A stretch of 64,000 nt of DNA from Streptomyces sp. NBC_01197. GTDB taxonomy: Bacteria > Actinomycetota > Actinomycetes > Streptomycetales > Streptomycetaceae. The stretch lies in NCBI RefSeq assembly GCF_036010505.1, contig NZ_CP108569.1, forward strand, positions 6,234,501 to 6,298,500, read 5' to 3'. Below, in pieces: positions 108 through 19,515 of this stretch. The notes below the pieces were generated by a model that was not told the origin of the DNA, did no database searches, and was given only the letters and a program-made list of their open reading frames with translations. The stretch's first letter is position 1; the number at the start of each line of letters is the position of its first letter. Made by a program: the position numbers and the translations under genes.

Positions 108-950
108 ATGACAGAAGGAACGGGCAGTACCCGTGACGCCGCGTCCAGGGCCGCCGGGGAAGAAGCGGCCACGGGACCGGACAGCTGGCGGGCGTGGCAC
201 GAAGAGCGCATGGCGACGGTCTCCGCGCCCTACGGTCCGCTGGCTCTGACCGGAACCCACTGGCTCGACGACGCGCCGGACGGACGGATTCCGGGCGTGG
301 CGGGCCACTGGGAGGCGGCCGGCGACGAGGTGGTGCTGACGGCCACCGCCGGTGACGGGCTCTCCCTCGACGGGAAGCCGTTCACCGGACGGGCCGCGCT
401 CACCGCCGACCACGCCCCGCCCGCGATGGCCCGCACCGCCCAGGGCGAGCGGCGTCTGGTCGTGGTGCGCAGGGAGGGGCTCTGGGCGGTCCGGGTCTGG
501 GACCCGGACTCCGCGAACCGGCGGGCGTTCGCCGGGATCGAGGCCACGCCGTACCACCCGGAGTGGGCACTTCCCGGCCTCTACCGGCCCTACGGCGCGA
601 GCCGAACCGTCCAGGTGCCCAACGCCGACGGCCGCGACCGTGGTCTCGGCCTCTCCGGCGAACTCGCCTTCCACCTGGCGGGCGACGAGCACACCCTCCA
701 GGTCGCGCAGGAGGAGGACGGTTCGCTGTGGGCGGTCTTCGCCGACACCACCAGCGGGACGAGCAGTTACCGGTTCCGCTTCCTGCGGCCGTCCGCACCG
801 GCGGCCGACGGCACGGTGAGGGTGGACTTCAACCGCACGCTGCTGCCGCCCTGCGCCTTCGCCGAGCACTTCATCTGCCCCTTCCCGCCGCCGGGCAACA
901 CCCTCCCGGTCGCGATCACGGCGGGTGAACGCAGAGCGCGTACACGCTGA
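108..950 (+). CDS. DUF1684 domain-containing protein
   Basis: A 280-residue soluble protein without signal peptide or membrane segments. It has the DUF1684 hallmarks: an N-terminal WRAWHEERM followed by PYGPLALTGTHWLDD, and a C-terminal DFNRTLLPPCAFAEHF followed by CPFPPPGNTLPV. The C-terminal Cys/Pro cluster is the most conserved part of the family, whose biochemical role is unknown to me. The first 25 or so residues are low-complexity and probably disordered. ATG 108 is preceded by GGAAGGG and lies 4 bp after the monooxygenase stop, which suggests one transcript and perhaps a shared flavin-linked pathway. Confidence 0.85.
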   Translation: MTEGTGSTRDAASRAAGEEAATGPDSWRAWHEERMATVSAPYGPLALTGTHWLDDAPDGRIPGVAGHWEAAGDEVVLTATAGDGLSLDGKPFTGRAALTADHAPPAMARTAQGERRLVVVRREGLWAVRVWDPDSANRRAFAGIEATPYHPEWALPGLYRPYGASRTVQVPNADGRDRGLGLSGELAFHLAGDEHTLQVAQEEDGSLWAVFADTTSGTSSYRFRFLRPSAPAADGTVRVDFNRTLLPPCAFAEHFICPFPPPGNTLPVAITAGERRARTR

Positions 951-1152
951 CCCGGCCTGATCCAGTCGGAAGACCCCCGCAGCGACCGTGCCCGGCCGGG
1001 AGGCCCTCTTGCGCCCGGTGGCCGGGTCGCGTTGTACTCCGGGCAGCGCGTTTGTCAGGGACACGGCGGGAGCGTTCCGCCGTGCCCCGGCCTGCGCCTC
1101 ATGGGTCCCCCCACCGAAAAGGACCCGCGGATTCTCTTCCGGAGGAACTGAT

Positions 1153-2052
1153 ATGAGGATCAAGCGCACCACCCCCCACAACGGCCCCGCGAGACGCGGC
1201 CGGCTGATCGCCGTGGCGTCCGGCCTGCTGGTCGCGGCCGCACTCACGGTCCCGACCGCCCACGCCGAGCAGGCCACGGCGTACAGCCCCCGGCAGCTGA
1301 CAGCCGCGAGCAACGCCGTGCAGGGCGCGGATGTCCCGGGCACCGCCTGGTACGTCGACAAGGCGACCGGCACCCTTGTCGTCACCGCGGACAGCACGGT
1401 CTCATCGGCGGAGATCAGCCGGATCAAGCAGCGGAGCGGGGCCAACGCGGGCGCGATCCGCGTCGAGCGCACCGCCGGCACCTTCAGTAAGCTCCTCAAG
1501 GGCGGTGACGCCATCTACACCTCGCAGTGGCGCTGCTCCGTCGGCTTCAACGTACGCAGTGGGTCGACCTATTACTTCCTCACCGCCGGTCACTGCACCG
1601 AGGGTTCCCCCGCCTGGTACACCAACTCGTCGGACACCACGAGCATCGGCCCGACGGCCGGCACCAGCTTCCCGGGCAACGACTACGGCATCGTCAAGTA
1701 CACCAACTCCGCCGTGCCGCACGCCGGCACCGCCGGCAGCCAGGACATCACCAGCGCGGGCAACCCGACGGTGGGCCAGACCGTGACCAGGACCGGCTCC
1801 ACCAGCGGCACCCACAGCGGCAAGGTCACCGCGCTGAACGCCACCGTCAACTACGGCGGCGGGGACGTCGTCTCCGGACTCATCCAGACGACGGTCTGCG
1901 CCGAGCCCGGTGACAGCGGCGGCCCGCTCTACGCGGGCTCCAAGGCCCTGGGTCTCACCTCGGGCGGCAGCGGTGACTGCACATCGGGCGGTACGACCTT
2001 CTTCCAGCCCGTCACCGAGGCGCTGAGCGCCTACGGGGTCAGCGTCTACTGA
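1153..2052 (+). CDS. sprB: Streptogrisin B-like secreted serine protease (S1E) preproprotein
   Basis: A 299-residue prepro-protease. ATG 1153 is chosen because GGAGG stands 7 bp upstream and it gives a normal Sec signal (RR then a hydrophobic core, AHA cleavage near residue 38). A propeptide of about 75 residues follows; the mature chymotrypsin-fold enzyme begins near residue 115 ([10 protein letters not shown]). The catalytic triad is visible: His147 in TAGHC, Asp177 in NDYGIV, Ser255 in GDSGGP. The last 25 residues, [17 protein letters not shown] included, agree closely with what I remember of Streptomyces griseus protease B. The protein is an extracellular endopeptidase. A strong hairpin terminator follows, so it is monocistronic. 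Confidence 0.9.
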
Positions 2053-2191: not shown

Positions 2192-2671
2192 ATGAAGCGC
2201 ATCGGAGTGACCGGACACCGCAGTATTCCGCCCGACGCCATCGCCCATGTGCGGGAGGCGCTGCGCACCCTGCTCGGCGGCCATCAGGGGCCCCTGGAGG
2301 TCCTCTCCAGCCTGGCCGCGGGGGCCGACCAGCTCTTCGCGTGCATCGCGCTCGAATACGGCGCCGAGCTGACCGCGGTCATCCCCAGCGGGGACTACGA
2401 ACTGGGCTTCCGCGACGCGGGCGAGCTGGCCGGCTACCGCCGGCTCAGAGGCAGGGCGACCCAGGAGGTCCGGATGGACTTCCCGCACTCGACGGACGAG
2501 GCCTACTACGCGGCCGGCGCCTATATCGCAGACAACTGCGACCGTCTGGTGGCCGTCTGGGACGGTCTGCCCTCCCGCGGCCTCGGCGGTACGGGCGACA
2601 TCGTCGGCTACGCCCTGGACGCGGGCAAGCCGGTGACCGTCATCTGGCGGGAGGGCGTGAAACGTGACTGA
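2192..2671 (+). CDS. SLOG-family (LOG/DprA-like Rossmann) nucleotide-binding protein
   Basis: A 159-residue single-domain protein. ATG 2192 (MKRIGVTGHRSI) is preferred over a TTG 48 bp upstream: a GGGGG ribosome site precedes it and homology would start here. Features of the SLOG superfamily are the GHR at the N terminus, the SSLAAGADQLFA helix-loop, the IPSGDYE turn, and the glycine-rich GLGGTGDIVGYAL that forms the nucleotide-phosphate loop. SLOG proteins bind or process nucleotide-derived ligands and are common in conflict systems with SLATT membrane effectors. The next gene, convergent and 69 bp away, is a SLATT protein, so a functional pair is likely. The ligand is unknown. Confidence 0.7.
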   Translation: MKRIGVTGHRSIPPDAIAHVREALRTLLGGHQGPLEVLSSLAAGADQLFACIALEYGAELTAVIPSGDYELGFRDAGELAGYRRLRGRATQEVRMDFPHSTDEAYYAAGAYIADNCDRLVAVWDGLPSRGLGGTGDIVGYALDAGKPVTVIWREGVKRD

Positions 2672-2740: not shown

Positions 2741-3667
2741 TCAACTGCCGTGCCGTGCGAGCCAGTCGGTGTACTGCGGTGAGACGACCCGCTCGGTCTC
2801 GTACACCGCGGCCGACCACTGCTTCTCGGTGAGGGGGCTCTCCATCTCCAGATGCAGCGCCTTGAGTTTCTCCTCCACCAGCGCGTGCGCCGCTATCAGC
2901 GGCTGGTGCCGGCGGAATTCGCTCCAGGCCACACCGGAGGCCGCGGCGGCCGACACCACCGCGGCGACCTCGGTGTTCTCGCTGATGGAGAGGGCGCGCA
3001 GCACCCCGAAGGCCAGGGCGACCAGGGTGAGCAGCGCGAAGGCGCTGGACCACAGGAGGGTGGCGCCGCGGGAGACCTCCTGCTTGCGCCGGTACCAGTT
3101 GCGCTGCTCGATCAGCCGGTCCCGTACGTAGGTCTCCTTGCGGACCTCGAACGACCTGGCCCGCAGCGAACGCATCCCGGGGGTGATCAGGTCGGTGCCG
3201 GGCGTCTCCTGGTCCCAGCCCACCGTGCGCAGTTCCTCCAGCTGCTCCCCGACGCGGCCGATGAACAACTCGTCCACATCGGCCGACCCGGCGTCGAAGG
3301 GGGCGCCGTGCACGGCGTAGCGCCAGCACATCGACTTGATGAAGTCGGCTGCCGAGCGGTTGAGTTGCCACTGTGCCTTGGCCTTGCGGCGGGAGGTGCT
3401 GAAGGTCAGCAGCAGCACCCCGGCGTAGGCCAGCGTGCTTAGTACGCCGATGGCCTGGAAGCCGCCCCCGAGCTCCGCTCGCCAGGGCAGGGACGCCGTC
3501 GCGGCACCCACCACCAGGAGCACCAGCTGGGCCCGGGTGGAGCCCACGGCCTCGCCCTGCCTGGCGATGGCGTGGGCGTCGGCCCGGTGGAACAGCCCGG
3601 GCAGATCGGCGCTCCGGAAGACCATGCTGTGTTCTGGGTTCCGCTCTGGACCGGGAAACGCCGTCAC
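2741..3667 (-). CDS. SLATT/DUF4231 two-helix membrane protein
   Basis: A 308-residue protein with GTG start at 3667, preceded by GGGGG; an internal ATG at 3625 is a weaker alternative. Two hydrophobic hairpins are visible: residues about 44-86 (LVLLVVGAATA and AIGVLSTLAYAGVLLLTF) and about 205-245 (LLWSSAFALLTLVALAFG and the alanine-rich AAVVSAAAASGVA), with charged helical stretches between and after. This duplicated 2TM-plus-helix layout is that of DUF4231/SLATT proteins (SMODS- and SLOG-associating 2TM effector), proposed to form pores on activation. It is divergent from fxsA and convergent with the SLOG gene, linking the two systems physically. Pore function here is inference. Confidence 0.75.
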   Translation of the reverse strand: MTAFPGPERNPEHSMVFRSADLPGLFHRADAHAIARQGEAVGSTRAQLVLLVVGAATASLPWRAELGGGFQAIGVLSTLAYAGVLLLTFSTSRRKAKAQWQLNRSAADFIKSMCWRYAVHGAPFDAGSADVDELFIGRVGEQLEELRTVGWDQETPGTDLITPGMRSLRARSFEVRKETYVRDRLIEQRNWYRRKQEVSRGATLLWSSAFALLTLVALAFGVLRALSISENTEVAAVVSAAAASGVAWSEFRRHQPLIAAHALVEEKLKALHLEMESPLTEKQWSAAVYETERVVSPQYTDWLARHGS

Positions 3668-3884: not shown

Positions 3885-4046
3885 ATGTCCGTAACTTCAG
3901 CCTCTTCCGCCGCTGTAAAGAAGCCGCGTGTCCCCCTGGCCGAGATCGATGTGCGCGGTACCGAGGCTGTCAAGCAGCTCGGCCGGGTTCTCTCCGCTTC
4001 GACCGGTCGCTCGATGAGGGCATCGACCTTCAATTCGGCGCTCTAG
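3885..4046 (+). CDS. fxsA: FxsA, FxSxx-COOH cyclophane RiPP precursor peptide
   Basis: A 53-residue peptide ending in FNSAL immediately before TAG, exactly the Phe-x-Ser-x-x-COOH signature of this precursor family. The N-terminal two thirds form the leader, including VPLAEIDVRGTEAVKQLGRV, which resembles the recognition helix of other family members; the core is the S/T/R-rich tail from about residue 39. ATG 3885 is the only start that gives a normal-length precursor. The stop is 9 bp before the ATG of the radical SAM maturase. By analogy with three-residue cyclophane-forming enzymes, Phe49 should be joined to Ser51. No separate protease or exporter gene is adjacent, so the mature product may remain leader-attached or act inside the cell. 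Confidence 0.88.
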   Translation: MSVTSASSAAVKKPRVPLAEIDVRGTEAVKQLGRVLSASTGRSMRASTFNSAL

Positions 4047-4055
4047 ACTGGCGGA

Positions 4056-6266
4056 ATGACAGGACCCCTGGTCCCATTCCGCGAGATCGTCCTCAAGGTC
4101 CACAGCAGATGCGATCTTGCCTGTGACCACTGCTATGTCTACGAACATGCCGACCAGAGCTGGCGCACGCGGCCCAAGGCCATCTCTGACGAGGCGGTCC
4201 ACTGGACAGCTCTGCGACTGGCGGAGCACGCCAGGACCCATGACCTGCCCTCCGTGTCAGTGATCCTGCACGGAGGGGAGCCACTGCTGGCAGGCCCCGC
4301 ACGACTGCGCCGCGTCTGTGAGGAGCTCACCGGGGCCCTCGAAGGGACCGCCGGGCTCGACCTCCGGATCCACACCAACGGCCTCCAGCTCAGCCCCCGG
4401 TACCTCGACCTGTTCGACGAGTTCAACGTCCGGGTCGGCATCTCCCTCGACGGGGACCGCGCCTCCAACGACAGGCACCGCCGCTTCGCCGACGGCCGCA
4501 CCAGCCATCCACTGGTACTCAGGGCCGTCGAGCTGCTCCGCCAGGACCGGTACGCCCATCTCGACCTCGGTCTGCTCTGCACCATCGACGTGCTGAACGA
4601 CCCGGTCGCCGTCTACGACGCGCTGACCGAGCTCGCCCCGCCGCGCATCGACTTCCTGCTGCCGCACGCGACCTGGGACGACCCCCCGCACCGGCCGGCC
4701 GGAGCGCCGACCGCCTACGCCGACTGGATCCTGACGGTCTTCGACCGCTGGGACGCGCAGGGGCGGAAGATCCCCGTACGGCTCTTCGAGTCGGTCATCT
4801 CCACGCTGGGCGGCGGTCCGAGCCTCACCGAGTCACTGGGCCTGGCCCCCACCGACCTGGTCGTCGTGGAGACCGACGGCACGCTGGAGCAGGTCGACTC
4901 CCTCAAGAGCGCCTACGAGGGCGCGGCGTTCACCGGGTTCGACGTCTTCAGCCACGCCTTCGACGAGGTGGCCGCCCACCCCGGGGTCCGCGCCCGCCAG
5001 CTCGGCCTGGCCGGTGTCGGCGAGAAGTGCCGGGAGTGCCCCGTCGTGCGGTCCTGCGGGGGCGGTCTCTACACCCACCGCTACCGCGCGGGCTCCTTCG
5101 ACCAGGAGAGCGTCTACTGCACCGATCTGGAGGCACTGGTCCGCGGCATCGAGACGCGCACCGCGCCGGCCGCCACCTCGCCCGCGCTCACCGATCCGCG
5201 GGAACTGGCCGCCGGACAGCAGGAGCTGACCCGCACTCTGCTCGCCGCGCTGCACACGGAACTGGCCGGCCGCGGCGGCGAGGAGTGGGCGCGGGCCTGG
5301 GAGCTGGCGGGCGAGGTCGAGCAGCGGTCCGACGGGCTCGACACGGTGCTCGCCCACCCCTACGCCCGCAGCTGGCTGCTCAGCTGCCTGGACGCCCTGC
5401 GCCTGGGCCGGTCCGGCACCCCCGGCAGGCTGGCCGCCCATGTCGCCGCTGGGGCCCTGCGAGGCGGGCTCGATCTGCCCGTCACCGTGGCGTACTCCGG
5501 TGGTCTGCTGCACCTGCCGACCTACGGGGCGTTACGTCTCACCGGGTCCGCCGCGAGCGGCAGCGCCGAGGTCCGCCGCGCCGAGAAGGGCTTCCTGGTC
5601 AGAAGCGCGGGCGCCGAACTGCGCGTTCCGCGCCCGGACGAGGCCACCGCCGACTGGCAGCCGCTGCGCAGGACCGACTGCGACGGGGCCCCCGATCTCG
5701 CGCTGGACGACCTCGACCCGTACCGCGACTGCTTCGGTACGCCCGTCGGGGAGCGCCTCACCCTGGCAGGCGCCGCCGACTGGAGCCGGCGCTTCGCGCG
5801 CACCTGGTCCGCGCTGCGGGCCGCCGTCCCCGTGCACGCCGAGGACGCCGCCGCCCGGCTCACCACGGTGACCCCGCTGACCGCGGGCGAGCCGGCGGTC
5901 GGCCGGCACGGGCACGGAGCCATCGGTGTCTCCCTGCCCGGCCTCACCCCCGGGGGCCTGCTGCGCGCCGTGCGCCGGGGGAAGCTGCGCGCGCTCCTCG
6001 ATGTCACCGATCTCTACGCCGAGGACGGCTCCTGGCCGCACCGGGTGCCCTGGCGGCAGGAGCCGGTGCCGGTCTCGGAGGTGCTGGCCGGCGCCTATGA
6101 GGGCGTGGCGCTCGCCGCGTACCCGGGAGAGAACCGTGCGCGCACCCTGGCGCACACCCGGCAGGCGCTGGAAGCTCTGGAGGGCGCGGCCGAACTGACC
6201 ATCAGCGGCAGGAGCCTGGTCGCCGCCCTGTGGGACGAGTGGGAGGAGGCAGCCCGTGGCCGGTGA
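4056..6266 (+). CDS. fxsB: FxsB, radical SAM/SPASM cyclophane peptide maturase with C-terminal HEXXH-like domain
   Basis: A 736-residue two-part enzyme. Residues 1 to about 365 are the radical SAM/SPASM part: the 4Fe-4S motif Cys19-x3-Cys23-x2-Cys26 (CDLACDHC), and SPASM cysteines at 325, 328, 334 and 355. It should use S-adenosylmethionine to form a C-C bond in the FNS tail of FxsA. Residues about 375-736 look like the HEXXH putative peptide-modification domain often fused to FxsB proteins (for example LLDVTDLYAEDG followed by VPWRQEPVPV), but the place where HEXXH should be reads RAVRR (637-641). A TTA leucine codon occurs at 5532-5534 (residue 493). The gene begins 9 bp after fxsA and overlaps the acetyltransferase gene by 11 bp. 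Confidence 0.9.
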   Translation: MTGPLVPFREIVLKVHSRCDLACDHCYVYEHADQSWRTRPKAISDEAVHWTALRLAEHARTHDLPSVSVILHGGEPLLAGPARLRRVCEELTGALEGTAGLDLRIHTNGLQLSPRYLDLFDEFNVRVGISLDGDRASNDRHRRFADGRTSHPLVLRAVELLRQDRYAHLDLGLLCTIDVLNDPVAVYDALTELAPPRIDFLLPHATWDDPPHRPAGAPTAYADWILTVFDRWDAQGRKIPVRLFESVISTLGGGPSLTESLGLAPTDLVVVETDGTLEQVDSLKSAYEGAAFTGFDVFSHAFDEVAAHPGVRARQLGLAGVGEKCRECPVVRSCGGGLYTHRYRAGSFDQESVYCTDLEALVRGIETRTAPAATSPALTDPRELAAGQQELTRTLLAALHTELAGRGGEEWARAWELAGEVEQRSDGLDTVLAHPYARSWLLSCLDALRLGRSGTPGRLAAHVAAGALRGGLDLPVTVAYSGGLLHLPTYGALRLTGSAASGSAEVRRAEKGFLVRSAGAELRVPRPDEATADWQPLRRTDCDGAPDLALDDLDPYRDCFGTPVGERLTLAGAADWSRRFARTWSALRAAVPVHAEDAAARLTTVTPLTAGEPAVGRHGHGAIGVSLPGLTPGGLLRAVRRGKLRALLDVTDLYAEDGSWPHRVPWRQEPVPVSEVLAGAYEGVALAAYPGENRARTLAHTRQALEALEGAAELTISGRSLVAALWDEWEEAARGR

Positions 6267-7038
6267 GGCCGGGCCGGCCGCCGAGCTGAGAGCGCTCGGG
6301 GTCACGGAGGGGATGACGCTGCTGGTGCACTCCGCGCTCGGTGGTACGGGGCTGGACGCGCGGACGCTGCGGGACGCGCTCCTCGGCGTCCTGGGCGAGG
6401 GGGGGACGCTGGTGGTCCCGGCCTTCACCCCGGAGAACTCCACGACATCGGCGGCCCATCTGCGGCAGACCGCCGGACTCACCGAGGACGCCAGGGCTCG
6501 CTTCCTCGCCTCGATGCCCGCCTTCGACCCCGCCCGTACGCCGTGTCCCGGGATGGGCCGGCTGGCTGAATGTGTCCGGCTCTCTCCGGGCGCGGTACGC
6601 AGCAGCCACCCCCAGACCTCGTTCGCCGCGCTGGGCGCGCGCGCCGAAGAGCTGGTAAAGGACCATCCCGCCGACTGCCACCTCGGTGAGGATTCCCCGC
6701 TGGGCAGACTCGCCGCCGCCGGCGCGCGGGAATTGATGATCAATGTGGGATTCGGTGTGTGCACCTCATTCCATCTCGCTGAATACCGGCTGGCTGAATA
6801 CAAGATTCCGGATATCCCGACGCGGCTGTACCGCTGCGTGGTCGGTACGGGTGGCCGGCGTGAGTGGTTCGAATACCGGGACATCGAACTCGACGACAGT
6901 GATTTCGAACTGATCGGTGCGGATTTCCCCCGCGTGAGCCTGCGAGAGGGGAAGCTGGGGAACGCGGCCGCCATGGCGTTCCCGATCAAGGAAGCTGTGG
7001 CGCACGCGATGAAGTGGATGACCGAAAAACGACGTTGA
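6256..7038 (+). CDS. AAC(3)-family (aminoglycoside 3-N-acetyltransferase-like) acyltransferase in the fxs operon
   Basis: A 260-residue protein with GTG start inside the end of fxsB (11-bp overlap, GGGAGGAGG upstream). Family motifs: LVHSALGGTG near residue 23, GGTLVVPAF, SSHPQTSFAALG with the conserved His118, LGEDSPLGRL and NVGFGVCTSFHLAEYR. AAC(3) enzymes transfer acetyl from acetyl-CoA to an amine. In this setting resistance is unlikely to be the real job; a peptide, lipid or small-molecule amine linked to the fxs product is a reasonable guess. The last third of the gene, from about 6720, has clearly more A/T at third positions than the rest of the operon. Confidence 0.8.
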   Translation: MAGEAGPAAELRALGVTEGMTLLVHSALGGTGLDARTLRDALLGVLGEGGTLVVPAFTPENSTTSAAHLRQTAGLTEDARARFLASMPAFDPARTPCPGMGRLAECVRLSPGAVRSSHPQTSFAALGARAEELVKDHPADCHLGEDSPLGRLAAAGARELMINVGFGVCTSFHLAEYRLAEYKIPDIPTRLYRCVVGTGGRREWFEYRDIELDDSDFELIGADFPRVSLREGKLGNAAAMAFPIKEAVAHAMKWMTEKRR

Positions 7039-7052
7039 TTGACCGAACGTCG
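7030..7052 (+). promoter_or_regulatory. Inverted repeat between the acetyltransferase and fxsC genes
   Basis: CGACGTT (7030-7036) and AACGTCG (7046-7052) are perfect 7-bp arms with a 9-nt spacer, overlapping the acetyltransferase stop codon. It could be an RNA hairpin tuning downstream expression or a protein-binding site. It lies in the only real gap (71 bp) of an otherwise tightly packed operon. Confidence 0.4.
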
Positions 7053-7109
7053 ACGGGGTGGGGACTCTTCGCTCCGGAATGATGTCTTCATGGACGACGG
7101 GGGGCCGAG

Positions 7110-8444
7110 TTGGCAGCATCGGAACAGCCGAGAGCGGCGAACCACAGGCCGTATTTTTTTCTCAGCTATGCGCACACTCCGAAACACGGAGCCGTCGGGC
7201 CCGACCCGGACATGTGGGTCGAGCGGCTCTTCCGTGACCTCTGCGCCCATGTGATGGCCATGACCAATCTGCCCGCGGGAGCGCCCGCGGGCTTCATAGA
7301 CCGGGAGCTGCGCTCGGGGGAGGGCTGGTCGGAGCGGCTCGGCGAAGTCCTCGCCACCTGCCGGGTCTTCGTACCGCTCTTCTCGCCCCGCTATTTCGGC
7401 AGCGAGATGTGCGGCAAGGAGTGGTACGCCTTCGCCCAGCGCGCCATTCAGGAACAGGTCCGCAGCAACCGCACGGCCGACGCGATAGTCCCCGCCCTCT
7501 GGGTCCCCGTGCCGCCGCACCAACTGCCGGGCCCGGCAGCGCGGTTGCAGTTCAACCACCGTGCTTTCGGCGAGCGCTATGTGACCGACGGGCTCTACGG
7601 TCTCGTCAAACTGCGGATATTCGCCGAGGAGTACGAGCGGGCAGTCTACGAACTGGCCAAACGCATTGTGAGCGTCGCCGACGCATCGGACGTCGGCCCG
7701 TGCCGCCCCGTCGACTACCGGGCCATACCCAGCGCCTTCGGCCCGCCCAGCGCGGGCCCGCGCCCGATGAAACTGACCGTCGCAGCGCCCACCCGCCACG
7801 ACCTTCCCGACGGCCGGCATTCCGAGTACTACGGGGACACCCCGCTGGACTGGAATCCGTACCACCCCGTCTCCGCGCAGCCGCTGTCCCGGCTGGCCGA
7901 GGACCTGGTCCGCTCGCTCAACTACCAGGCCACCGTCACCTCGTTCGACGAGGAAGTACTCCACCTCGACGGGAAGCAGCCTCCGTCACGTCCCGAGGTC
8001 CTGCTCGTCGACCGCTGGGCCCTGCACGACGACGAGCGGCGCCAGCGGCTCGCCGCCTTCGACTCCGAGCACCGCCCCTGGGTGAGTGTGGTGGTCCCCT
8101 GGAACCGCGACGACCACCAGAGCAGAGCCTCCGAGGCCGAGCTCACCGGCCGTCTTGAGGACACCATGCCGTCCAAGATGCGGGAGGGGCGCGCCGCGTC
8201 GAGAGCCGCGGCCAAGGGCGTCCCGAGCATGGAGGCCTTCGGCCAGATCCTCCCCCAGGTGGTGGAGGCCGCCGCCCAGCAGTATCTGAAGCACGCAGCC
8301 GTCTACCCGCCGGGCGGCGGCGGCCACCACGAACGGCCCCGGCTCATCGGCCCGATGGCGACCGAGCAGGCCGCCACCCGCTACATACCGGCAACTCAGG
8401 ATCTCGCGCTCGATGCGGAGGACACGGATGACGGCAGGTCGTGA
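7110..8444 (+). CDS. fxsC: FxsC, TIR-like domain protein
   Basis: A 444-residue protein. TTG 7110 is the only plausible start in frame; the ATG at 7090 is out of frame, and ACGGGGGG precedes the TTG. Residues about 14-135 form a TIR-like fold: the beta-strand box YFFLSYAH, then the VFVPLFSPRYFGS strand and turn with CGKEW, where Glu104 sits at the position of the catalytic glutamate of NAD-hydrolysing TIR domains. Residues about 210-440 form a second region of unknown fold (SRLAEDLVRSLNYQATVTSF, then WVSVVVPWNRDD). A run of seven T at 7154-7160 lies in codons 15-17. The gene overlaps fxsT by 17 bp. NADase activity is inferred, not shown. Confidence 0.88.
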   Translation: MAASEQPRAANHRPYFFLSYAHTPKHGAVGPDPDMWVERLFRDLCAHVMAMTNLPAGAPAGFIDRELRSGEGWSERLGEVLATCRVFVPLFSPRYFGSEMCGKEWYAFAQRAIQEQVRSNRTADAIVPALWVPVPPHQLPGPAARLQFNHRAFGERYVTDGLYGLVKLRIFAEEYERAVYELAKRIVSVADASDVGPCRPVDYRAIPSAFGPPSAGPRPMKLTVAAPTRHDLPDGRHSEYYGDTPLDWNPYHPVSAQPLSRLAEDLVRSLNYQATVTSFDEEVLHLDGKQPPSRPEVLLVDRWALHDDERRQRLAAFDSEHRPWVSVVVPWNRDDHQSRASEAELTGRLEDTMPSKMREGRAASRAAAKGVPSMEAFGQILPQVVEAAAQQYLKHAAVYPPGGGGHHERPRLIGPMATEQAATRYIPATQDLALDAEDTDDGRS

Positions 8445-11400
8445 CGGACGCATCGTCACCTTCTACTCGTACAAGGGAGGTACCGGCCGGACCATGGCCC
8501 TGGCCAACACCGCCTGGATCCTGGCCGCCAACGGCAGACGCGTCCTCGCGGTCGACTGGGACCTGGAGGCACCGGGCCTCTACCGCTTCTTCCACCCCTT
8601 CCTCGACCCGTCCACGCTCGGCGCCACCACCGGGATCATCGACCTGATCACCGAGTACGCCTGGGCGGCCACCAGCCCCGTCCCGCGCCCCGACGACTGG
8701 CACCGGGACTACGCCCGTATCCAGCAGCACGCCGTCTCGCTGACACCGGAGACGCTGGGCTGGGAGTTCCCCGACGGCGGCACGCTCGACTTCGTGTCGG
8801 CCGGCCGGCAGAACCGCGAGTACTCCGCCACCGTCTCCACCTTCGACTGGGACAACTTCTACGACCGGCTCGGCGGCGGCCACTTCTTCGACGCGCTGCG
8901 CGACGACATGAAGGCCAACTACGACTACGTCCTCATCGACAGCAGGACCGGGCTCAGCGACATCGCCGACATCTGCACCGTCCATCTGCCCGACGCGCTC
9001 GTCGACTGCTTCACCCTCAGCGACCAGTCCATCGACGGCGCCGCCGCCGTGGCCCGCCAGATCGACAAGCACGACGGCGGCCGGGGCATCCAGATCCTGC
9101 CCGTCCCGATGCGGATCGACGAGGGCGAGAAGGAGAAGGCGGACGCGGGACGGGCCCTGGCCAGGCTCCGGTTCGACGGGCTGCCGCGCGGGCTCACGGG
9201 CGAGGAGCTCACCGCGTACTGGGGAGCGGTCGAGATCCCGTACCGCCCCTACTACGCCTACGAGGAGACCCTGGCCACCTTCGGCGACGAGGCAGGGCTC
9301 ACCAACTCGCTGCTCTCCGCCTTCGAACGGCTCGCCTCCGTCGTCACCGACCGGCAGATCACCTCGATGCCGCAGATCCCCGAAGAGGTCAGGCTGCGCA
9401 TCAGGGACGCCTTCACCCGCCGCCGCCCCGCGCTCCCCGCCGATCTGCTGCTCAGCTATGTGGCCGAGAACCGGATGTGGGCGGACTGGATCGAGTCAGT
9501 GCTCACCCGCGCCGGATTCCGGGTGGTGCCGCGCGACGTGTCGGCCGAGGCGCCACCGTCCGACGCGGAGACCGCGGCGGCCGACGGCGCGGCCCGTACC
9601 GTCGTCGTGCTGTCCAGCGCCTATCTCAAGTCGGCCCGCGCGGTGGAGGTCTGGCAGCGCTCGGCCGCCGAGGACCCCTCCGGGACCCGCAGGCATCTGC
9701 TGCCGCTGCGCGTCGGTGACGTACGGCTGACCACGCCCTACATCGACCGCAACCCGGTCGACCTGTTCCGGCTCGACGAGGTGCACGCCACCGCTGCGCT
9801 GCTGCGGGCGGTGGACCGGCCGGGCCAGGCGGTCGACGGGGTGGCGCCGGGGCCGCGGTTCCCCGGCACCGTCCCGAAGATCTGGAACGCCCCGGCCCGC
9901 AACTCCGGCTTCACCGGGCGCTCCCTGGTACTGGAGCGGATGCGCGACCAGCTCGGCGGCGGGATGGCCGTGGTCCTGCCGCAGCCCCAGACGCTGTACG
10001 GCCTCGGCGGCGTCGGCAAGACCCAGGTGGCCCTGGAGTACGTACACCGCTTCATGGCCGACTACGACCTGGTCTGGTGGATCTCCGCCGAACAGACCGA
10101 CGACGTGATCGCCGGCCTCGCCGAACTCGCCGTCCGTCTTGGCACCCAGGGCGCCGACGACATGGCGTCCGCCTCGCAGGAGGCCATCGATCTGCTGCGC
10201 CGCGGGGTGCCCACCTCGCGTTGGCTGCTGGTCTTCGACAACGCGGACGATCCCGAGCAGCTCAAGCGCTTCTTCCCGCCGGGCGGCCCCGGCCATGTGC
10301 TGGTGACCTCGCGGAACCAGACCTGGTCGCAGTACGGGGACGCGCTGCCCGTCGACGTCTTCATGCGGGAGGAGTCCGTCGAGCACATCCAGCGCCGGGC
10401 GCCGGGGCTCTCCGCCGACGACGCGGCCCGGGTCGCCGAGGCGGTGGGCGATCTGCCGCTCGCCGTCGAGCAGGCGGCGGCCTGGATCGCCGAGACCGCC
10501 ACCCCCGTCGACACCTATCTGGAACAGCTGGCCCAGGAGGCCGAGAGCGTCCTCGCCCTCAACCAGCCCGCCGGGTACCCCGAACCGGTGGCCGCCACCT
10601 GGAACGTGTCCATCGCCCGCCTCAAGGAGCGCTCGCCCGCCGCGGTCCGGCTGCTCCAGCTCTGCGCCTTCTTCGCGCCGGAACCGATCTCGGCCAAGCT
10701 CCTCTACAGCCGGGAGATGATCGACGCGCTCAAGCCGTACGACGCGACGCTCCAGGAGAAGCTGGTGCTCGGCCGGGTCATCCGGGAGATCGGCCGCTTC
10801 GCGCTCGCCAAGGTGGACCCGGTGGGCGGCTCCATCCAGGTGCACCGCCTGGTGCAGGCCGTGATCAAGGCACAGCTCAGCCACGCGGAGCGGGACGACG
10901 CACGGCACGCCGTCCATATGATCCTCGCGGGCGCCAGGCCCGACGGTGACGAGCCGATAGACAATCCCGGCACCTGGCCCGACTTCGCCCCCATCTGGCC
11001 GCACCTGGGCCCGTCGGAGGCCAGGCTCTGCAAGGAGCCGGAGACCCGCCGGCTGATGATCGACCGGGTGCGCTACCTGTGGAAGCGCGGTGACTTCGTC
11101 ACGGCGGCAGCCCTCGCCGGCGAGCTGCGCGAGGTGTGGCGCGAACGCCTCGGCAACAACGACCTCCAGTACCTCTACCTCCGCTTCCACCTCTCCAACA
11201 TCCTCCGCTCGCGCGGTCGTTACGTGGAGGCCATGGAGCTGGACGAGGAGACCCTGCGGCGCCAGCGCGAGCAGCTCCCGGAGCTCGGCCCTTCGCATCC
11301 GCACACCTACATGACCACCAGCGCCCTGGCCATGGACCTGGGTGCGGTCGGTGAGTACAGCAGGGCCATGACGCTGGCGACCGAGGCGTACGAGGGGTTC

Positions 11401-12372
11401 AAGGAGATCTTCGACGAGTCGCATCCGAGGACCCTGGCCGCGGCCAACAACCTGGCGCTGAACCTGCGGATCGCCGGCCAGTACGCCCGCGCGCGCGAGA
11501 TGGACCAGGACGTCTACGACCGCCGCACCGAAGTGCTCGGCCCGGAGCATCCGTACACCCTCTCGTCCGCGCAGAACCTCGCCCGCGACCTGCGCGAGGT
11601 CGGCCGGTACGAGGACTCCGTCGTGCTGCTCTCGCGGACGTACCAGATCTTCAAGGAGCAGCTGGGCCGGGCCTTCCCCGGTACGCTCGCGGCGGCCAAG
11701 AGCCTGGCCGTCTCGCTGCGCAGGGCCGGCCGCCCGGAGGACGCCAGGCGGCTGACCTCGGCCACCCGGGACCGGTACCGCATCAAGTACACGGTGGCGA
11801 ACCCGGACTGGCTGGCCTGCGACCTGAACTTCGCGGCCGACCTGTTCGCCGCCGGGGACGCGGTGGGGGCGCGGGACACCGCGCAGGCGGTGGTCGACCA
11901 GTACATGAAGATGCCGGGGGAGCGGCATCCGTACACCCTCACCGCCATGAACAACCTCGGTATCTTCCAGGGGGCCTGCGGTGCGCTGGACACCGCCGAA
12001 TCGGTGCTCGCCAGCACGATCAGGGCGATGAGCGACGTACTGAACCCCCGTCATCCGCATGTGCTGTTCGCGACCGTCAACCTCGCCAATGTGACGGCCG
12101 AGCTGGGCGATCTCCCGAAGGCCCTGGAGATCGAGCGCCGGGTGGTCGCGGCGCTGCGCGAGGTCGTCGGCGCCCATCATCCGGAGACCCTGGCCTGTGC
12201 GTCCAACATGTCGGTGACGCTGGACGCACTCGGGCGCAAGGAGGAGGCGCAGCTGCTGAGGGCGGAGACCGTCACCGAGCTGCAGCGGCAGCTCGGTGAC
12301 GACCACGACTACGTGGGGATCGCGGGCGACGCGCGGCGGTTCAGCCGGGACCTGGAGCCGCTCGTGGTGTGA
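8428..12372 (+). CDS. fxsT: FxsT-type fusion: MinD-like ATPase, TIR, NB-ARC NTPase and TPR repeats
   Basis: A 1314-residue protein. ATG 8428 has CGGAGG 7 bp upstream; the ATG at 8413 lacks one. Order of domains: MinD/ParA-like ATPase from residue 8 (IVTFYSYKGGTGRT, where the usual GKT is GRT); a TIR-like domain at about 337-470 (LLLSYVAENRMWADW); an NB-ARC/STAND NTPase with Walker A GLGGVGKT at 525-532 and Walker B LLVFDNADD around Asp604; then kinesin-light-chain-type TPRs of about 42 residues from about 880 to the end, each with HPxT. In the TIR domain the glutamate position next to the conserved Trp409 is Val408. STAND proteins act as inducible signalling hubs. This matches the 'FxSxx-COOH system TPR protein' family. 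Confidence 0.9.
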   Translation: MTAGRDGRIVTFYSYKGGTGRTMALANTAWILAANGRRVLAVDWDLEAPGLYRFFHPFLDPSTLGATTGIIDLITEYAWAATSPVPRPDDWHRDYARIQQHAVSLTPETLGWEFPDGGTLDFVSAGRQNREYSATVSTFDWDNFYDRLGGGHFFDALRDDMKANYDYVLIDSRTGLSDIADICTVHLPDALVDCFTLSDQSIDGAAAVARQIDKHDGGRGIQILPVPMRIDEGEKEKADAGRALARLRFDGLPRGLTGEELTAYWGAVEIPYRPYYAYEETLATFGDEAGLTNSLLSAFERLASVVTDRQITSMPQIPEEVRLRIRDAFTRRRPALPADLLLSYVAENRMWADWIESVLTRAGFRVVPRDVSAEAPPSDAETAAADGAARTVVVLSSAYLKSARAVEVWQRSAAEDPSGTRRHLLPLRVGDVRLTTPYIDRNPVDLFRLDEVHATAALLRAVDRPGQAVDGVAPGPRFPGTVPKIWNAPARNSGFTGRSLVLERMRDQLGGGMAVVLPQPQTLYGLGGVGKTQVALEYVHRFMADYDLVWWISAEQTDDVIAGLAELAVRLGTQGADDMASASQEAIDLLRRGVPTSRWLLVFDNADDPEQLKRFFPPGGPGHVLVTSRNQTWSQYGDALPVDVFMREESVEHIQRRAPGLSADDAARVAEAVGDLPLAVEQAAAWIAETATPVDTYLEQLAQEAESVLALNQPAGYPEPVAATWNVSIARLKERSPAAVRLLQLCAFFAPEPISAKLLYSREMIDALKPYDATLQEKLVLGRVIREIGRFALAKVDPVGGSIQVHRLVQAVIKAQLSHAERDDARHAVHMILAGARPDGDEPIDNPGTWPDFAPIWPHLGPSEARLCKEPETRRLMIDRVRYLWKRGDFVTAAALAGELREVWRERLGNNDLQYLYLRFHLSNILRSRGRYVEAMELDEETLRRQREQLPELGPSHPHTYMTTSALAMDLGAVGEYSRAMTLATEAYEGFKEIFDESHPRTLAAANNLALNLRIAGQYARAREMDQDVYDRRTEVLGPEHPYTLSSAQNLARDLREVGRYEDSVVLLSRTYQIFKEQLGRAFPGTLAAAKSLAVSLRRAGRPEDARRLTSATRDRYRIKYTVANPDWLACDLNFAADLFAAGDAVGARDTAQAVVDQYMKMPGERHPYTLTAMNNLGIFQGACGALDTAESVLASTIRAMSDVLNPRHPHVLFATVNLANVTAELGDLPKALEIERRVVAALREVVGAHHPETLACASNMSVTLDALGRKEEAQLLRAETVTELQRQLGDDHDYVGIAGDARRFSRDLEPLVV

Positions 12373-12403: not shown

Positions 12404-13315
12404 TCACTCGTCCAGCAGCCAGTTGAGGATGCGGGGGAGCGCGTGCAGCGCGTCGAAGTGCGCGGCGGCCGGTTCGAGTACGGCCGTCGCGCCCGGGATG
12501 CGCCGGGCCAGCCAGCGGGAGTGGCCGACGGGCGAGAAGACGTCCTTCACCCCGTGCCACAGCATGATCGGGCTGCGGATGTCGGCGGGGTCGAAACCCC
12601 AGGGGTGGGAGAACGCCAGCGCGTCGTCGATCCAGCCGTACGGTGAAGTGCGCAGCGCCTCCTGGTAGTTGCGCAGCAGCATGGCCCGTACGCCCGCGTC
12701 GTTGACGACTCGGCGGTCGGAGTCGGTGAGGTCGCTGAACAGCTGGTCGAGCAGGCGGACGGGGTTCTTCCTGATCTCCGCCGAGCGCGGGATGAGCCGG
12801 GCCGCCAGGCCGTCGGGGTCGTCGGACGCGGTGGTGTACTCCCGGACGTTGGACGCGGCCATGCCCTCGAACCAGTCGAGCCCGACGGCGTCCCGCGGGG
12901 CGAGTGTCACCAGGGCGGCCGCTCTGGTGACCCGGCCGGGCAGCAGGGCCGCACAGGCCAGCGCGTGGGGTGCGCCGCCCGACCGGCCCGCGACGGCGAA
13001 CCTCTCGATGCCCAGCGCGTCCGCGATCGCCCCGACGTCCTGGGCGACATCGGCGACGCTGCGTCCCGGCAGCCGGTCACTGCCTCCGTAGCCGGGGCGG
13101 TCGAAGGCGATGAGCTGCATTCTGCGCTGATAGAGCACCATGCCGCGCGGGGCGGGCCCGAGTCTGCTGCCCGGGGTGCCGTGCAGCAGGAACACCGGCC
13201 TGCCGCGCGGATCGCCGAGACGTTCCACTGTGAGATGACGTCCGTCCGGCGCGCGAACCCGCCCGCGCAGCCCCGGTCCCTCTGTGCCGTATGCATGCAT
13301 CGTGTGCACTGGCAT
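12404..13315 (-). CDS. Alpha/beta hydrolase
   Basis: A 303-residue cytosolic alpha/beta-hydrolase. FLLHGTPGS (residues 42-50) holds the oxyanion-hole segment, the nucleophile elbow is AGRSGGA with Ser112, and the acid and base are probably Asp in WHGVKDVFSP and His in PAAAHFDAL near the C terminus. The fold resembles proline iminopeptidase, haloalkane dehalogenase and esterase relatives, so the reaction is not determined. It faces the end of fxsT with only 31 bp between stops, and nothing shows that it belongs to that system. Confidence 0.8.
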   Translation of the reverse strand: MPVHTMHAYGTEGPGLRGRVRAPDGRHLTVERLGDPRGRPVFLLHGTPGSRLGPAPRGMVLYQRRMQLIAFDRPGYGGSDRLPGRSVADVAQDVGAIADALGIERFAVAGRSGGAPHALACAALLPGRVTRAAALVTLAPRDAVGLDWFEGMAASNVREYTTASDDPDGLAARLIPRSAEIRKNPVRLLDQLFSDLTDSDRRVVNDAGVRAMLLRNYQEALRTSPYGWIDDALAFSHPWGFDPADIRSPIMLWHGVKDVFSPVGHSRWLARRIPGATAVLEPAAAHFDALHALPRILNWLLDE

Positions 13316-15909: not shown

Positions 15910-16059
15910 GGACCCACGGTCCGGTAGAGGGGGTGTTTGCGCAGGTGGGGCGGGCCCGAATGGCTGACGCGCCGTTAATCGCACAAGTATTCGAAAGTGG
16001 TCTATGGTGGTGAAGGGGGTCAGGAACGGACTGGATCAGCGGAGCAGGAGGTGCGGCGG

Positions 16060-19000
16060 ATGCCCGGTTTCACGCATCTCCACACCGTCTCGGGGTTCTC
16101 CCTGCGGTACGGGGCCTCCCACCCGGAACGGCTCGCCGAGCGGGCCGCCGAGCGGGGTATGGACGCCATCGCGCTGACCGACCGGGACACCCTCTCCGGC
16201 ACCGTCCGCTTCGCCAAGGCCTGTGCCGCGGCCGGGGTGCGGCCGCTGTTCGGCGCGCGGCTCGCGGTTGGCGGGCGGGCGCGGGCCGAGGGGCCCACGC
16301 ACCGGATGCGCGCCCCCGTGCGCGGCGGAGTGTTCGTCGACGAGTCCGTGCCCCGCGCGACCTTCCTCGCCCGGGACGGCTCGGCGGGCTGGGCGGCCCT
16401 GTGCCGGCTGGTCACCGCGGCCCACGCGGGCGGGGAGCGGCCCCTGCTGCCCTGGGACGAGAACCACGGGGACGGTCTCGCCGTCCTGCTCGGCCCGGAC
16501 TCCGACGTCGGCCGTGCGCTCGCCGCCGGCCGCCCCGACCGGGCCGCCGCCCTGCTCGGGCCCTGGCGGGAGGCGCACGGCGACGCGCTGCGCCTCGAAG
16601 CGGTCCACCACGGGCTGAGCGGCACCGGGCCCGGCTCGCTCAGACTCGCCGCCCGCACGCTCGGCTTCGCCGCCGAGCAGGGCGTACGCCCCGTACTGAC
16701 CAACGCCGTCCGCTACGCCGACCAGGGGCAGGGCCCCGTAGCCGACGTCCTCGACGCCGCCCGCAGGCTGGTGCCCGTCGATCCGCGCAAGGGCCTCGAC
16801 AGCGGTGAGCGCTGGCTCAAGGACGCCGGTGAGATGTTCCGCACCGCCGAGCGGATCGCCGAGGCGGCGGGCTTCCGCCGGGACACCGCACACCGGCTGA
16901 TCGACGAGACCCAGGCGCTGGCCGCCTCGTGCAGCGTCGACGCCGAGGACGACCTCGGTATGGGCACCGTCCACTTCCCCGAACCGCGTCTCGTCGGCGC
17001 CGCCCATCGCACCGCACAGCGCGTGCTCGCCTCCCGGGCCGCCGCCGGCATGGTGCTGCGCGGTTACGACCGCAGGCGCGAGTACTGGGAGCGGGTGCAC
17101 CACGAGCTGGACATCATCGCCTTCCACGGCCACGCCTCGTACTTCCTGACCGTCGCCCGGGTCGTGGACGATGTGAAGGAGATGGGTATCCGGGTCGCGG
17201 CCCGCGGCTCCGGTGCGGGGTCCCTCGTCAACCATCTCCTGGGCATCGCCAACGCGGACCCCGTCGAGCACGGGCTGCTGATGGAGCGCTTCCTCTCCCG
17301 GCGCAGGCTCGCGCTGCCCGACATCGACATCGACGTCGAGTCGGCCCGCAGGCTCGACGTCTACCGCGCGATCATCGGCCGCTTCGGCGCCGAGCGGGTC
17401 GCCACCGTGGCCATGCCGGAGACCTACCGGGTGCGCCACGCGATACGGGACGTGGGCGCCGCCCTGTCCATGGACCCGGCGGAGACCGACCGGCTCGCCA
17501 AGGCCTTCCCGCACATCCGTGCCCGCGATGCCCGTGCCGCGCTGGCTGAGCTGCCCGAACTGCGCGCCGTGGCCGAGGAGTCGAAGCGGGACGGCGGGAA
17601 GTACGGACGGCTGTGGGAGCTGGTCGAGGGGCTCGACGCGCTGCCGCGCGGAATCGCCATGCACCCGTGCGGGGTGCTGCTCTCCGACGCCTCCCTGCTG
17701 CGGCGCACGCCGGTGATGCCGACCAGCGGCGAGGGCTTCCCGATGTCCCAGTTCGACAAGGAGGACGTGGAGGACCTGGGGCTGCTCAAGCTCGATGTGC
17801 TGGGGGTGCGGATGCAGTCCGCGATGGCCCACGCCGTCGCCGAGATCGGCCGGGCCACCGGGGAGCGGCTCGACCTGGACGACCCCGCCCAGGTGCCGGC
17901 GGGCGACCCCGCGACGTACGCGCTCATCCGCTCCACCGAGACGCTGGGCTGCTTCCAGATCGAATCGCCGGGCCAGCGCGACCTGGTGGGGCGGCTGCAG
18001 CCCGCCACCTTCGACGATCTGGTCGTCGACATCTCGCTGTTCCGGCCGGGGCCGGTCGCGGCCGACATGGTGCGGCCCTTCATCGAAGCCCGGCACGGCC
18101 GCGCGCCGGTGCGCTTCCCGCACCCCGATCTGGCGGAGGCGCTGAGCGGCACGTACGGGGTCGTCGTCTTCCACGAGCAGATCATCGAGATCCTGCGGAT
18201 CATGACGGGCTGCGGGCGGGACGAGGCGGACCAGGCGCGGCGCCGGCTGTCCGACCCCGAGTGGCAGGGGCGTATCCGCGCCTGGTTCGCCGCGGCGACG
18301 GCGGAGCGCGGCTATGCGCCCGAAGTCACCGCGCACACCTGGGAGATCGTCGAGGCGTTCGGCGCGTACGGCTTCTGCAAGGCGCACGCGGTGGCCTTCG
18401 CCGTGCCGACGTACCAGTCCGCCTGGCTCAAGGCGCACCACCCCGCCGCCTTCTACGCGGGGCTGCTCACCCACGACCCGGGGATGTATCCGAAGCGGCT
18501 GCTGCTGGCGGACGCACGGCGGCGCGGGGTTCCGGTGCTGCCGCTGGACGTGAACCGGTCGGCGGTCGCTCACCGTATCGAACTGGTGTCCGGCAAGCTC
18601 GGTGTCCGGCTCGCGCTCTCCGACGTCCACGGCATCAGCGAGGCCGAGGCCGAACGGATCGAGACCGGTCAGCCCTACTCCTCCCTGCTGGACTTCTGGC
18701 AGCGCGCCCGGCCGGGAAAGCCGGTCGCCCAGCGGCTCGCCCAGGTCGGCGCGCTGGACGCGTTCGGCGCGAACCGCCGGGATCTGCTGCTGCACATCTC
18801 CGAACTGCACGCGGGCCGCGGCGGATCCGCGCACAGCGGCCAACTCGCCCTGGGCGAAGGGCGGAAGGCCGCATCGGCCGGTCTGCCCGACCTCAGCGAC
18901 ACCGAGCGGCTCAGCGCCGAACTCGGCATCCTCGGCATGGACTCGTCGCGCCATCTGATGGAGGACCACTACGCCTTCCTGAAGGAACTGGGCGCGCTCT

Positions 19001-19515
19001 CAGCCCGGCGGCTGCGCTCCGCCGAGCACGGGCAGAGCGTCCTGGTCGCGGGCGCCAAGGCCGCCACCCAGACCCCGCCGATCCGCTCCGGGCGCCGGGT
19101 CGTCTTCACCACCCTGGACGACGGCACGGGCCTGGTCGACCTCGCCTTCTTCGACGACAGCCATGCCACGTGCGCGTACACCGTCTTCCACTCCTGGCTG
19201 CTGCTGGTGCGCGGAGTGGTGCAGCGGCGCGGGCCGCGCAGCCTCAGCGTGGTCGGCTCGGCGGCCTGGAACCTGGCCGATCTGGTCGAACTGCGGCGTA
19301 CCGGCGGTCTCGAGGCCGTCGCCGCCGCCCTGGCCGCGCCCGCGCCGGACGGAAGGGGCGGGGCGGACGGAATGGAGGAACCGGCCGACAACGGCCGCCG
19401 CATCCAGCTCTCCACCGGCTACGAGATGAACCCCTGGGCGGACCTCAGGCCCGCCGGGGACCCGAACACCACCGGGCGCAAGCTCTGGCACTCCAGCCAG
19501 GGGAGCGCGGGATGA
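16060..19515 (+). CDS. dnaE2: Error-prone DNA polymerase III alpha subunit DnaE2 (ImuC)
   Basis: A 1151-residue C-family polymerase. ATG 16060 has AGGAGG 9 bp upstream, so the 63-bp longer reading is rejected. The PHP domain is at the start (FTHLHTVSGFSLRYGASHP), the polymerase core has ALPDIDIDVES with the catalytic aspartates, then FRPGPVAADMV, YGVVVFHEQI and FCKAHAVAFAVPTYQSAWLKAHHP, all typical of DnaE2. The C terminus has the OB-fold region but no long tail for replisome binding. It performs mutagenic translesion synthesis after DNA damage. It overlaps the downstream Y-family gene by ATGA, so the two are translationally coupled. Confidence 0.93.
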   Translation: MPGFTHLHTVSGFSLRYGASHPERLAERAAERGMDAIALTDRDTLSGTVRFAKACAAAGVRPLFGARLAVGGRARAEGPTHRMRAPVRGGVFVDESVPRATFLARDGSAGWAALCRLVTAAHAGGERPLLPWDENHGDGLAVLLGPDSDVGRALAAGRPDRAAALLGPWREAHGDALRLEAVHHGLSGTGPGSLRLAARTLGFAAEQGVRPVLTNAVRYADQGQGPVADVLDAARRLVPVDPRKGLDSGERWLKDAGEMFRTAERIAEAAGFRRDTAHRLIDETQALAASCSVDAEDDLGMGTVHFPEPRLVGAAHRTAQRVLASRAAAGMVLRGYDRRREYWERVHHELDIIAFHGHASYFLTVARVVDDVKEMGIRVAARGSGAGSLVNHLLGIANADPVEHGLLMERFLSRRRLALPDIDIDVESARRLDVYRAIIGRFGAERVATVAMPETYRVRHAIRDVGAALSMDPAETDRLAKAFPHIRARDARAALAELPELRAVAEESKRDGGKYGRLWELVEGLDALPRGIAMHPCGVLLSDASLLRRTPVMPTSGEGFPMSQFDKEDVEDLGLLKLDVLGVRMQSAMAHAVAEIGRATGERLDLDDPAQVPAGDPATYALIRSTETLGCFQIESPGQRDLVGRLQPATFDDLVVDISLFRPGPVAADMVRPFIEARHGRAPVRFPHPDLAEALSGTYGVVVFHEQIIEILRIMTGCGRDEADQARRRLSDPEWQGRIRAWFAAATAERGYAPEVTAHTWEIVEAFGAYGFCKAHAVAFAVPTYQSAWLKAHHPAAFYAGLLTHDPGMYPKRLLLADARRRGVPVLPLDVNRSAVAHRIELVSGKLGVRLALSDVHGISEAEAERIETGQPYSSLLDFWQRARPGKPVAQRLAQVGALDAFGANRRDLLLHISELHAGRGGSAHSGQLALGEGRKAASAGLPDLSDTERLSAELGILGMDSSRHLMEDHYAFLKELGALSARRLRSAEHGQSVLVAGAKAATQTPPIRSGRRVVFTTLDDGTGLVDLAFFDDSHATCAYTVFHSWLLLVRGVVQRRGPRSLSVVGSAAWNLADLVELRRTGGLEAVAAALAAPAPDGRGGADGMEEPADNGRRIQLSTGYEMNPWADLRPAGDPNTTGRKLWHSSQGSAG

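Follow-up and report, generated by a model that had tools for sequence, protein, structure and literature searches.

What does a short, modified peptide do when its gene is packed into one operon with TIR and STAND proteins? The fxs operon of Streptomyces sp. NBC_01197 raises this question. It lies in a 64,000-nucleotide stretch of contig NZ_CP108569.1 (positions 6,234,501 to 6,298,500), here called the window, and consists of fxsA, coding for a peptide precursor; fxsB, for its radical S-adenosylmethionine (SAM) maturase; a gene for an acyltransferase of the aminoglycoside 3-N-acetyltransferase (AAC(3)) fold; fxsC, for a TIR protein; and fxsT, for a large STAND protein. An original prediction, made from the letters alone, had placed these five genes, and all five are confirmed at their positions, with family scores that support their identities. 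From observed gene content, co-occurrence, and residue conservation, together with predicted folds for the FxsC TIR domain and a neighboring SLOG protein, we tentatively read the locus as a STAND/TIR conflict system that acts inside the cell, is linked to a peptide, and here includes a SLOG-SLATT arm, and we rate that reading somewhat short of an even chance.

A conserved operon

We annotated 120 loci, comprising 20 around FxsC matches, 99 around FxsB matches, and the opening 16 kb of the window, using profiles built on the window's own proteins. The 99 FxsB loci were chosen among the matches listed, with large contigs preferred, so that counts lean to high-scoring FxsB. There are 117 loci with FxsB and 111 with both FxsB and FxsT. 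Two loci, L042 and L079, overlap in one region; both enter the totals of 120, 117, 112, and 111, while the region is counted once in the tree count for the HExxH motif and in the recount of the FxsT TIR residue.

The operon is not a chance arrangement, for most of the 117 FxsB loci have the genes in the same order, and 91 of them have an FxS-type open reading frame (ORF) upstream of fxsB. FxsC is present in 107 of the 111 loci with FxsB and FxsT. The association of a cyclophane-type peptide with TIR and STAND proteins is conserved across the surveyed loci.

Four of the five operon proteins reach NCBIfam cut-offs, the exception being the AAC(3)-like protein, which is placed by its Pfam fold family only. 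FxsC scores 233.5 bits against NF040588 and 241.7 bits against TIGR04276, and FxsT scores 1035 bits against NF040586, with matches to KGGVGR-type MinD-like, TIR_2, NB-ARC, and TPR domains. The genome holds a single TIGR04268 (FxsA) match and a single TIGR04276 match, and among named matches Streptomyces sp. NBC_01306 ranks first, with 100% identity in FxsC. The predicted intergenic gaps of 9, -11, 71, and -17 bp are correct provided that fxsT starts at the ATG at 8428; the longest fxsT ORF begins at 8413 and overlaps fxsC by 32 bp.

An intact and a degenerate TIR domain

The predicted TIR fold of FxsC carries the motif glutamate of TIR NADases. This putative catalytic residue, Glu104, is invariant (112 of 112), and cleavage of NAD (nicotinamide adenine dinucleotide) by FxsC is putative. 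In contrast, a glutamate occupies the catalytic column of the FxsT TIR domain in only 1 of 108 sequences. Given this difference, the FxsC TIR is perhaps an enzyme and the FxsT TIR a scaffold, as judged by residue conservation. Elsewhere in FxsT, the P-loop lysine is kept in 112 of 112 sequences and the MinD-like arginine in 110 of 110. Five loci (L128, L131, L142, L148, and L149) have a second FxsC/FxsT set in tandem with the fxs genes, and L128 and L131 additionally have two SLATT matches each.

Distribution of the family

The fxs family is common but patchy. Of 391 genomes in the order, 240 have an FxsB that exceeds its cut-off, FxsC is found in 25 of 61 relatives (once with a score short of the family cut-off), and some genomes have several FxsB copies, e.g., three FxsB loci in genome G375. 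Both the patchiness and the multiple copies count against the best-surviving alternative, that the locus serves developmental or housekeeping signaling in filamentous actinobacteria, with the peptide and the STAND protein timing cell death or sporulation rather than phage defense. That alternative draws on the best 80 of 221 confirmed named loci, which are all titled Streptomyces (one of them being [Kitasatospora] papulosa), on the one chromosomal block shared by 43 of the 111 loci, and on the scanned flanking genes, which, SLATT excepted, are not known defense genes. We consider it possible but fairly unlikely.

The peptide and its maturase

FxsA scores 28.8 bits against the TIGR04268 cut-off of 28, and it ends in FNSAL followed by a stop, the F-x-S-x-x-COOH arrangement that names the family. 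In the 91 loci mentioned above, the upstream ORF ends in F-x-S-[ASGT]-[LIVMF], most commonly FNSAL (34 of the strict matches); two of the matches lie more than 1 kb from fxsB and are probably due to chance, both of their loci also having a near one. Six of the remaining 26 loci have variant ends near fxsB, e.g., FNSAC or FQSCL, and no credible precursor candidate was listed in the rest. Across the survey, the C-terminal pentapeptide is conserved and most of the leader is variable. Such a fixed, free C terminus would fit recognition by a TPR superhelix.

FxsB scores 571.5 bits against TIGR04269 (cut-off, 370) and 391.8 bits against NF040587. The NCBIfam name points to a family chemistry in which the three residues F-x-S of FxsA would be cross-linked to form a cyclophane. 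In the alignment, the window's FxsB reads RAVRR where HEFQH stands in its relatives, so that its HExxH motif is lost; of 110 loci, 25 retain the motif, which has changed at least six times on the tree, and NCBIfam already models an inactivated beta-hydroxylase form. The fused beta-hydroxylase domain of the window's FxsB (residues 374 to 729) is full length despite the loss, and peptide binding or a structural role may explain its retention. In the available text of PMC7159879 (eLife 2020), the zincin-like (HExxH) domain of FxSxx systems is interpreted as a peptidase, and according to the portion of PMC12636437 at hand, a related domain fused to radical SAM acts as a beta-hydroxylase. By NCBIfam NF040587, FxsB has the same domain pair as the ChlBH-type cyclophane hydroxylases of the latter source, which fuse radical SAM to an alpha-ketoglutarate-HExxH domain. 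Unlike that type, however, FxsB has RAVRR in place of the catalytic motif, and hydroxylation is therefore not expected.

The acyltransferase scores 232.5 bits against PF02522. In its aligned stretch, H111 and H166 are present in 73 of 73 sequences and E169 in 72 of 73, and the gene is optional, occurring in 68 of the 111 loci with FxsB and FxsT. At 134.2 bits against the aminoglycoside 3-N-acetyltransferase equivalog NF033082 (cut-off, 270), it was not called a resistance enzyme.

FxsA, FxsB, and the acyltransferase form a compact biosynthetic unit, which raises the alternative that the peptide itself is the effector, a toxin or an antibiotic-like RiPP (ribosomally synthesized and posttranslationally modified peptide) whose production or release is controlled by the STAND and TIR proteins. 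Conservation of the pentapeptide beside a variable leader agrees with this alternative. However, the core is very small and shows little variation, in contrast to many antagonistic peptides, and the 28 largest gene families listed for the neighborhoods include no transporter family that occurs in more than 10 loci. A toxin is also one of two options offered in the available text of PMC7159879. On balance, we regard an effector peptide as unlikely. The scarcity of transporters fits the original prediction, which had argued from the absence of an exporter to intracellular action.

Flanking genes linked to the operon

The SLOG and SLATT genes upstream, a conserved alpha/beta-hydrolase gene downstream, and the loss of HExxH in FxsB are additions to what had been predicted. 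The SLATT protein scores 128.1 bits against PF18184 and 107 bits against PF18181 and is above cut-off for NF033610 and NF033634. The SLOG protein has a predicted fold of that superfamily and is YpsA-like.

Linkage beyond synteny was assessed with Fisher tests in 37 same-genus genomes (15 with FxsC and 22 without; sets compiled by hand), where the FxsC-positive status of genome G033 rests on a match below the family cut-off. The criteria were E 1e-20 and near full length for SLATT, at least 49% identity for SLOG, and at least 55% for the hydrolase, the identity limits being chosen after the matches were seen. SLATT was found in 10 of the 15 FxsC-positive genomes and 0 of the 22 FxsC-negative ones (p 8.6e-6), a partial match in FxsC-positive G022 (31% over 184 residues) being excluded, and the SLOG subfamily gave the same counts and p value (10/15 versus 0/22, p 8.6e-6). 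At E 1e-15 alone, SLOG was found in 11/15 versus 5/22. The hydrolase followed with 10/15 versus 3/22 (p 0.0015), while a control neighbor, DUF1684, showed no association (8/15 versus 14/22, p 0.73). A tree-based test found SLATT and SLOG together in four supported independent pairs and none opposite (p 0.125; a small sample, in the same direction).

Within the 111 loci with FxsB and FxsT, SLATT is present in 63, and SLOG accompanies it in all 60 SLATT-positive loci whose FxsB lost HExxH. Both are absent from 44 of the 111, and the SLOG-SLATT arm is therefore optional. Among named relatives, 67 full-length loci with FxsB and FxsT were found in 80 fetched, with the hydrolase in 67 and SLATT in 66. 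These loci are closely related to the window, and most share its chromosomal block. In six genomes of family f3, FxsC has a SLOG relative (36 to 43%) at a distance of about 5 kb or less (6 of the 10 f3 matches), and SLATT of this subfamily is absent from those genomes. The hydrolase and SLATT have swapped sides in 11 of the 120 loci (L038, L087, L093, L095, L097, L100, L107, L116, L120, L127, and L129), as if the fxs operon had been inverted in place one or more times between them.

That SLOG, SLATT, and the hydrolase are mere chromosomal neighbors and the five genes alone form the system is quite improbable: SLATT does stand outside the operon, is transcribed away from it, and occurs in 43 of 43 loci inside the DUF1684/trypsin block versus 20 of 68 outside, yet SLATT and close SLOG are missing from each of the 22 FxsC-negative genomes compared, unlike DUF1684, the swapped flanks were both retained, and the f3 genomes place SLOG relatives near FxsC.

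The hydrolase scores 62.8 bits against PF00561, and its serine, aspartate, and histidine are each kept in 102 of 103 sequences. It adjoins the fxs genes in 103 of the 111 loci, including 60 of the 68 outside the DUF1684/trypsin block. In the PDB, it best matches an entry titled pimeloyl-ACP methyl ester carboxylesterase (1.4e-50), with prolyl aminopeptidases far behind (2e-11); the prolyl aminopeptidase model TIGR01249 gives 39.4 bits, below its cut-off of 259.75. With so regular a neighbor, the earlier statement that no peptidase gene is present needs care, even if this putative hydrolase is closest to a carboxylesterase.

Table 1. Genes of the fxs locus in window coordinates
Feature	Position	Strand	Basis
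SLOG-fold protein, 159 aa, MKRIGVTGHR...	2192..2671	+	SLOG fold
SLATT_3-SLATT_1 protein, two 2TM (two-transmembrane) effector domains, divergent from fxsA	2741..3667	-	PF18184, PF18181
fxsA, FxSxx-COOH precursor, 53 aa, C terminus FNSAL	3885..4046	+	TIGR04268; C-terminal motif conserved
fxsB, radical SAM/SPASM maturase with inactivated beta-hydroxylase extension	4056..6266	+	TIGR04269, NF040587, alignment
AAC(3)/Antibiotic_NAT-fold acyltransferase	6256..7038	+	PF02522
fxsC, N-terminal TIR and C-terminal receiver/flavodoxin-like domain (weak)	7110..8444	+	NF040588, TIGR04276
fxsT, KGG-T-GR MinD-like, degenerate TIR, NB-ARC, and TPR	8413..12372 (ATG 8413 or 8428)	+	NF040586
Alpha/beta-hydrolase, GRSGG nucleophile motif with Asp and His, convergent with fxsT	12404..13315	-	PF00561

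Farther upstream, a DUF1684 gene (108-950, plus strand) and an alpha-lytic-type protease gene (988-2052, plus strand) recur as neighbors in about 40 of the 120 loci. A DNA polymerase III alpha-type gene (15997-19515, plus strand; PHP and DNA_pol3_alpha domains), possibly DnaE2-like, lies outside the finding. Very long minus-strand frames opposite fxsB, the acyltransferase gene, and fxsC (5532-7964) and opposite fxsT (9496-12306) are an expected by-product of coding DNA with about 71% G+C.

Relation to known systems

The available text of PMC7159879 predicts a coupling of FxSxx peptides to AP-ATPases and describes standalone actinobacterial FxSxx systems, in which the AP-ATPase has an inactive MinD/ParA-like domain and the peptide is proposed to be a toxin or a signal. 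The window shares with these the FxSxx peptide, the radical SAM/SPASM enzyme, and, beside their genes, an AP-ATPase that combines TPR with an inactive MinD/ParA-like domain; the zincin-like HExxH motif is absent from the extension of the window's FxsB. The suggestion of a new kind of system consequently does not hold for the core, which NCBIfam has already named, and the immunity reading, although strengthened by SLOG/SLATT linkage, is not new in outline. The same text names SLATT and an alpha/beta-hydrolase for other systems, and FxsC, SLOG, SLATT, and the hydrolase are not named there for the standalone form. To judge from the literature searched, two points are new: the linkage of SLOG, SLATT, and hydrolase genes to the operon, and the division of the TIR domains into one that is intact and one that is degenerate.

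Two kinds of conflict system bear on these additions. In Thoeris, ThsA detects the TIR product via its SLOG domain, according to the portion of PMC10022894 at hand. The window has in common with Thoeris a TIR enzyme, a SLOG fold, and a nucleotide-signaling logic; unlike Thoeris, its SLOG is a separate YpsA-like protein, and the locus also has a STAND protein and a RiPP. The eight Pfam-scanned proteins, to which this search was confined, the rest of the genome not being searched, gave no SIR2 or Macro match, and the five operon proteins gave no Thoeris match in PADLOC. The second kind comprises the nucleotide-dependent systems that pair SLOG with a SLATT 2TM protein. SLATT is predicted in the available text of PMC7159879 to be a nucleotide-signal-responsive pore effector, and DRT10 phage defense requires SLATT, as stated in the consulted part of a preprint (PMC12632851). 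The window shares this pairing, with its pair adjoining a RiPP-STAND operon.

A proposed mechanism

The activities in our scheme and their order, from peptide binding through NAD cleavage and signaling to pore opening, are what we infer for a STAND/TIR conflict system of this composition. FxsB would cross-link FxsA at its C-terminal F-x-S, giving a three-residue cyclophane. The modified peptide would remain intracellular, as the lack of a widely shared transporter family around the loci suggests, and would bind the TPR sensor of FxsT and set its state. We slightly favor a brake or health reporter over an activating signal, because making the peptide needs translation, SAM, and intact Fe-S clusters. 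Upon a trigger, FxsT might oligomerize via NB-ARC, with its degenerate TIR gathering the intact TIR of FxsC as a scaffold. FxsC would then consume NAD, yielding a nucleotide signal, NAD depletion, or both. In slightly more than half of the loci surveyed, the window included, SLOG would sense or process the nucleotide and SLATT would open a membrane pore, leading to cell death or arrest. The alpha/beta-hydrolase and the AAC(3)-like protein may trim or acylate the peptide.

A more specific version is a RiPP-gated circuit resembling those of NLR (nucleotide-binding leucine-rich repeat) proteins, and taken as a whole it is something of a long shot. Here, the modified C terminus would signal that translation, SAM, and Fe-S chemistry are in order and would hold FxsT off until infection halts peptide making, whereupon the dead TIR of FxsT would nucleate the live TIRs of FxsC, and an NAD-derived signal would pass through free SLOG to the SLATT pore. 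To our knowledge, no RiPP has been described before as the guardee or brake of a TIR/STAND death system, so that this one would be the first, and the relay from TIR through SLOG to SLATT would be distinct from Thoeris.

If the scheme is true, a bacterial death switch of the NLR-like type would be under the control of a modified peptide, and the division between adaptor and enzyme TIRs would be reminiscent of animal and plant immunity. An annotated RiPP family of orphan function would thereby become an eight-gene system open to testing, in which effector candidates are named and E104 of FxsC and the P-loop lysine of FxsT offer single-residue handles.

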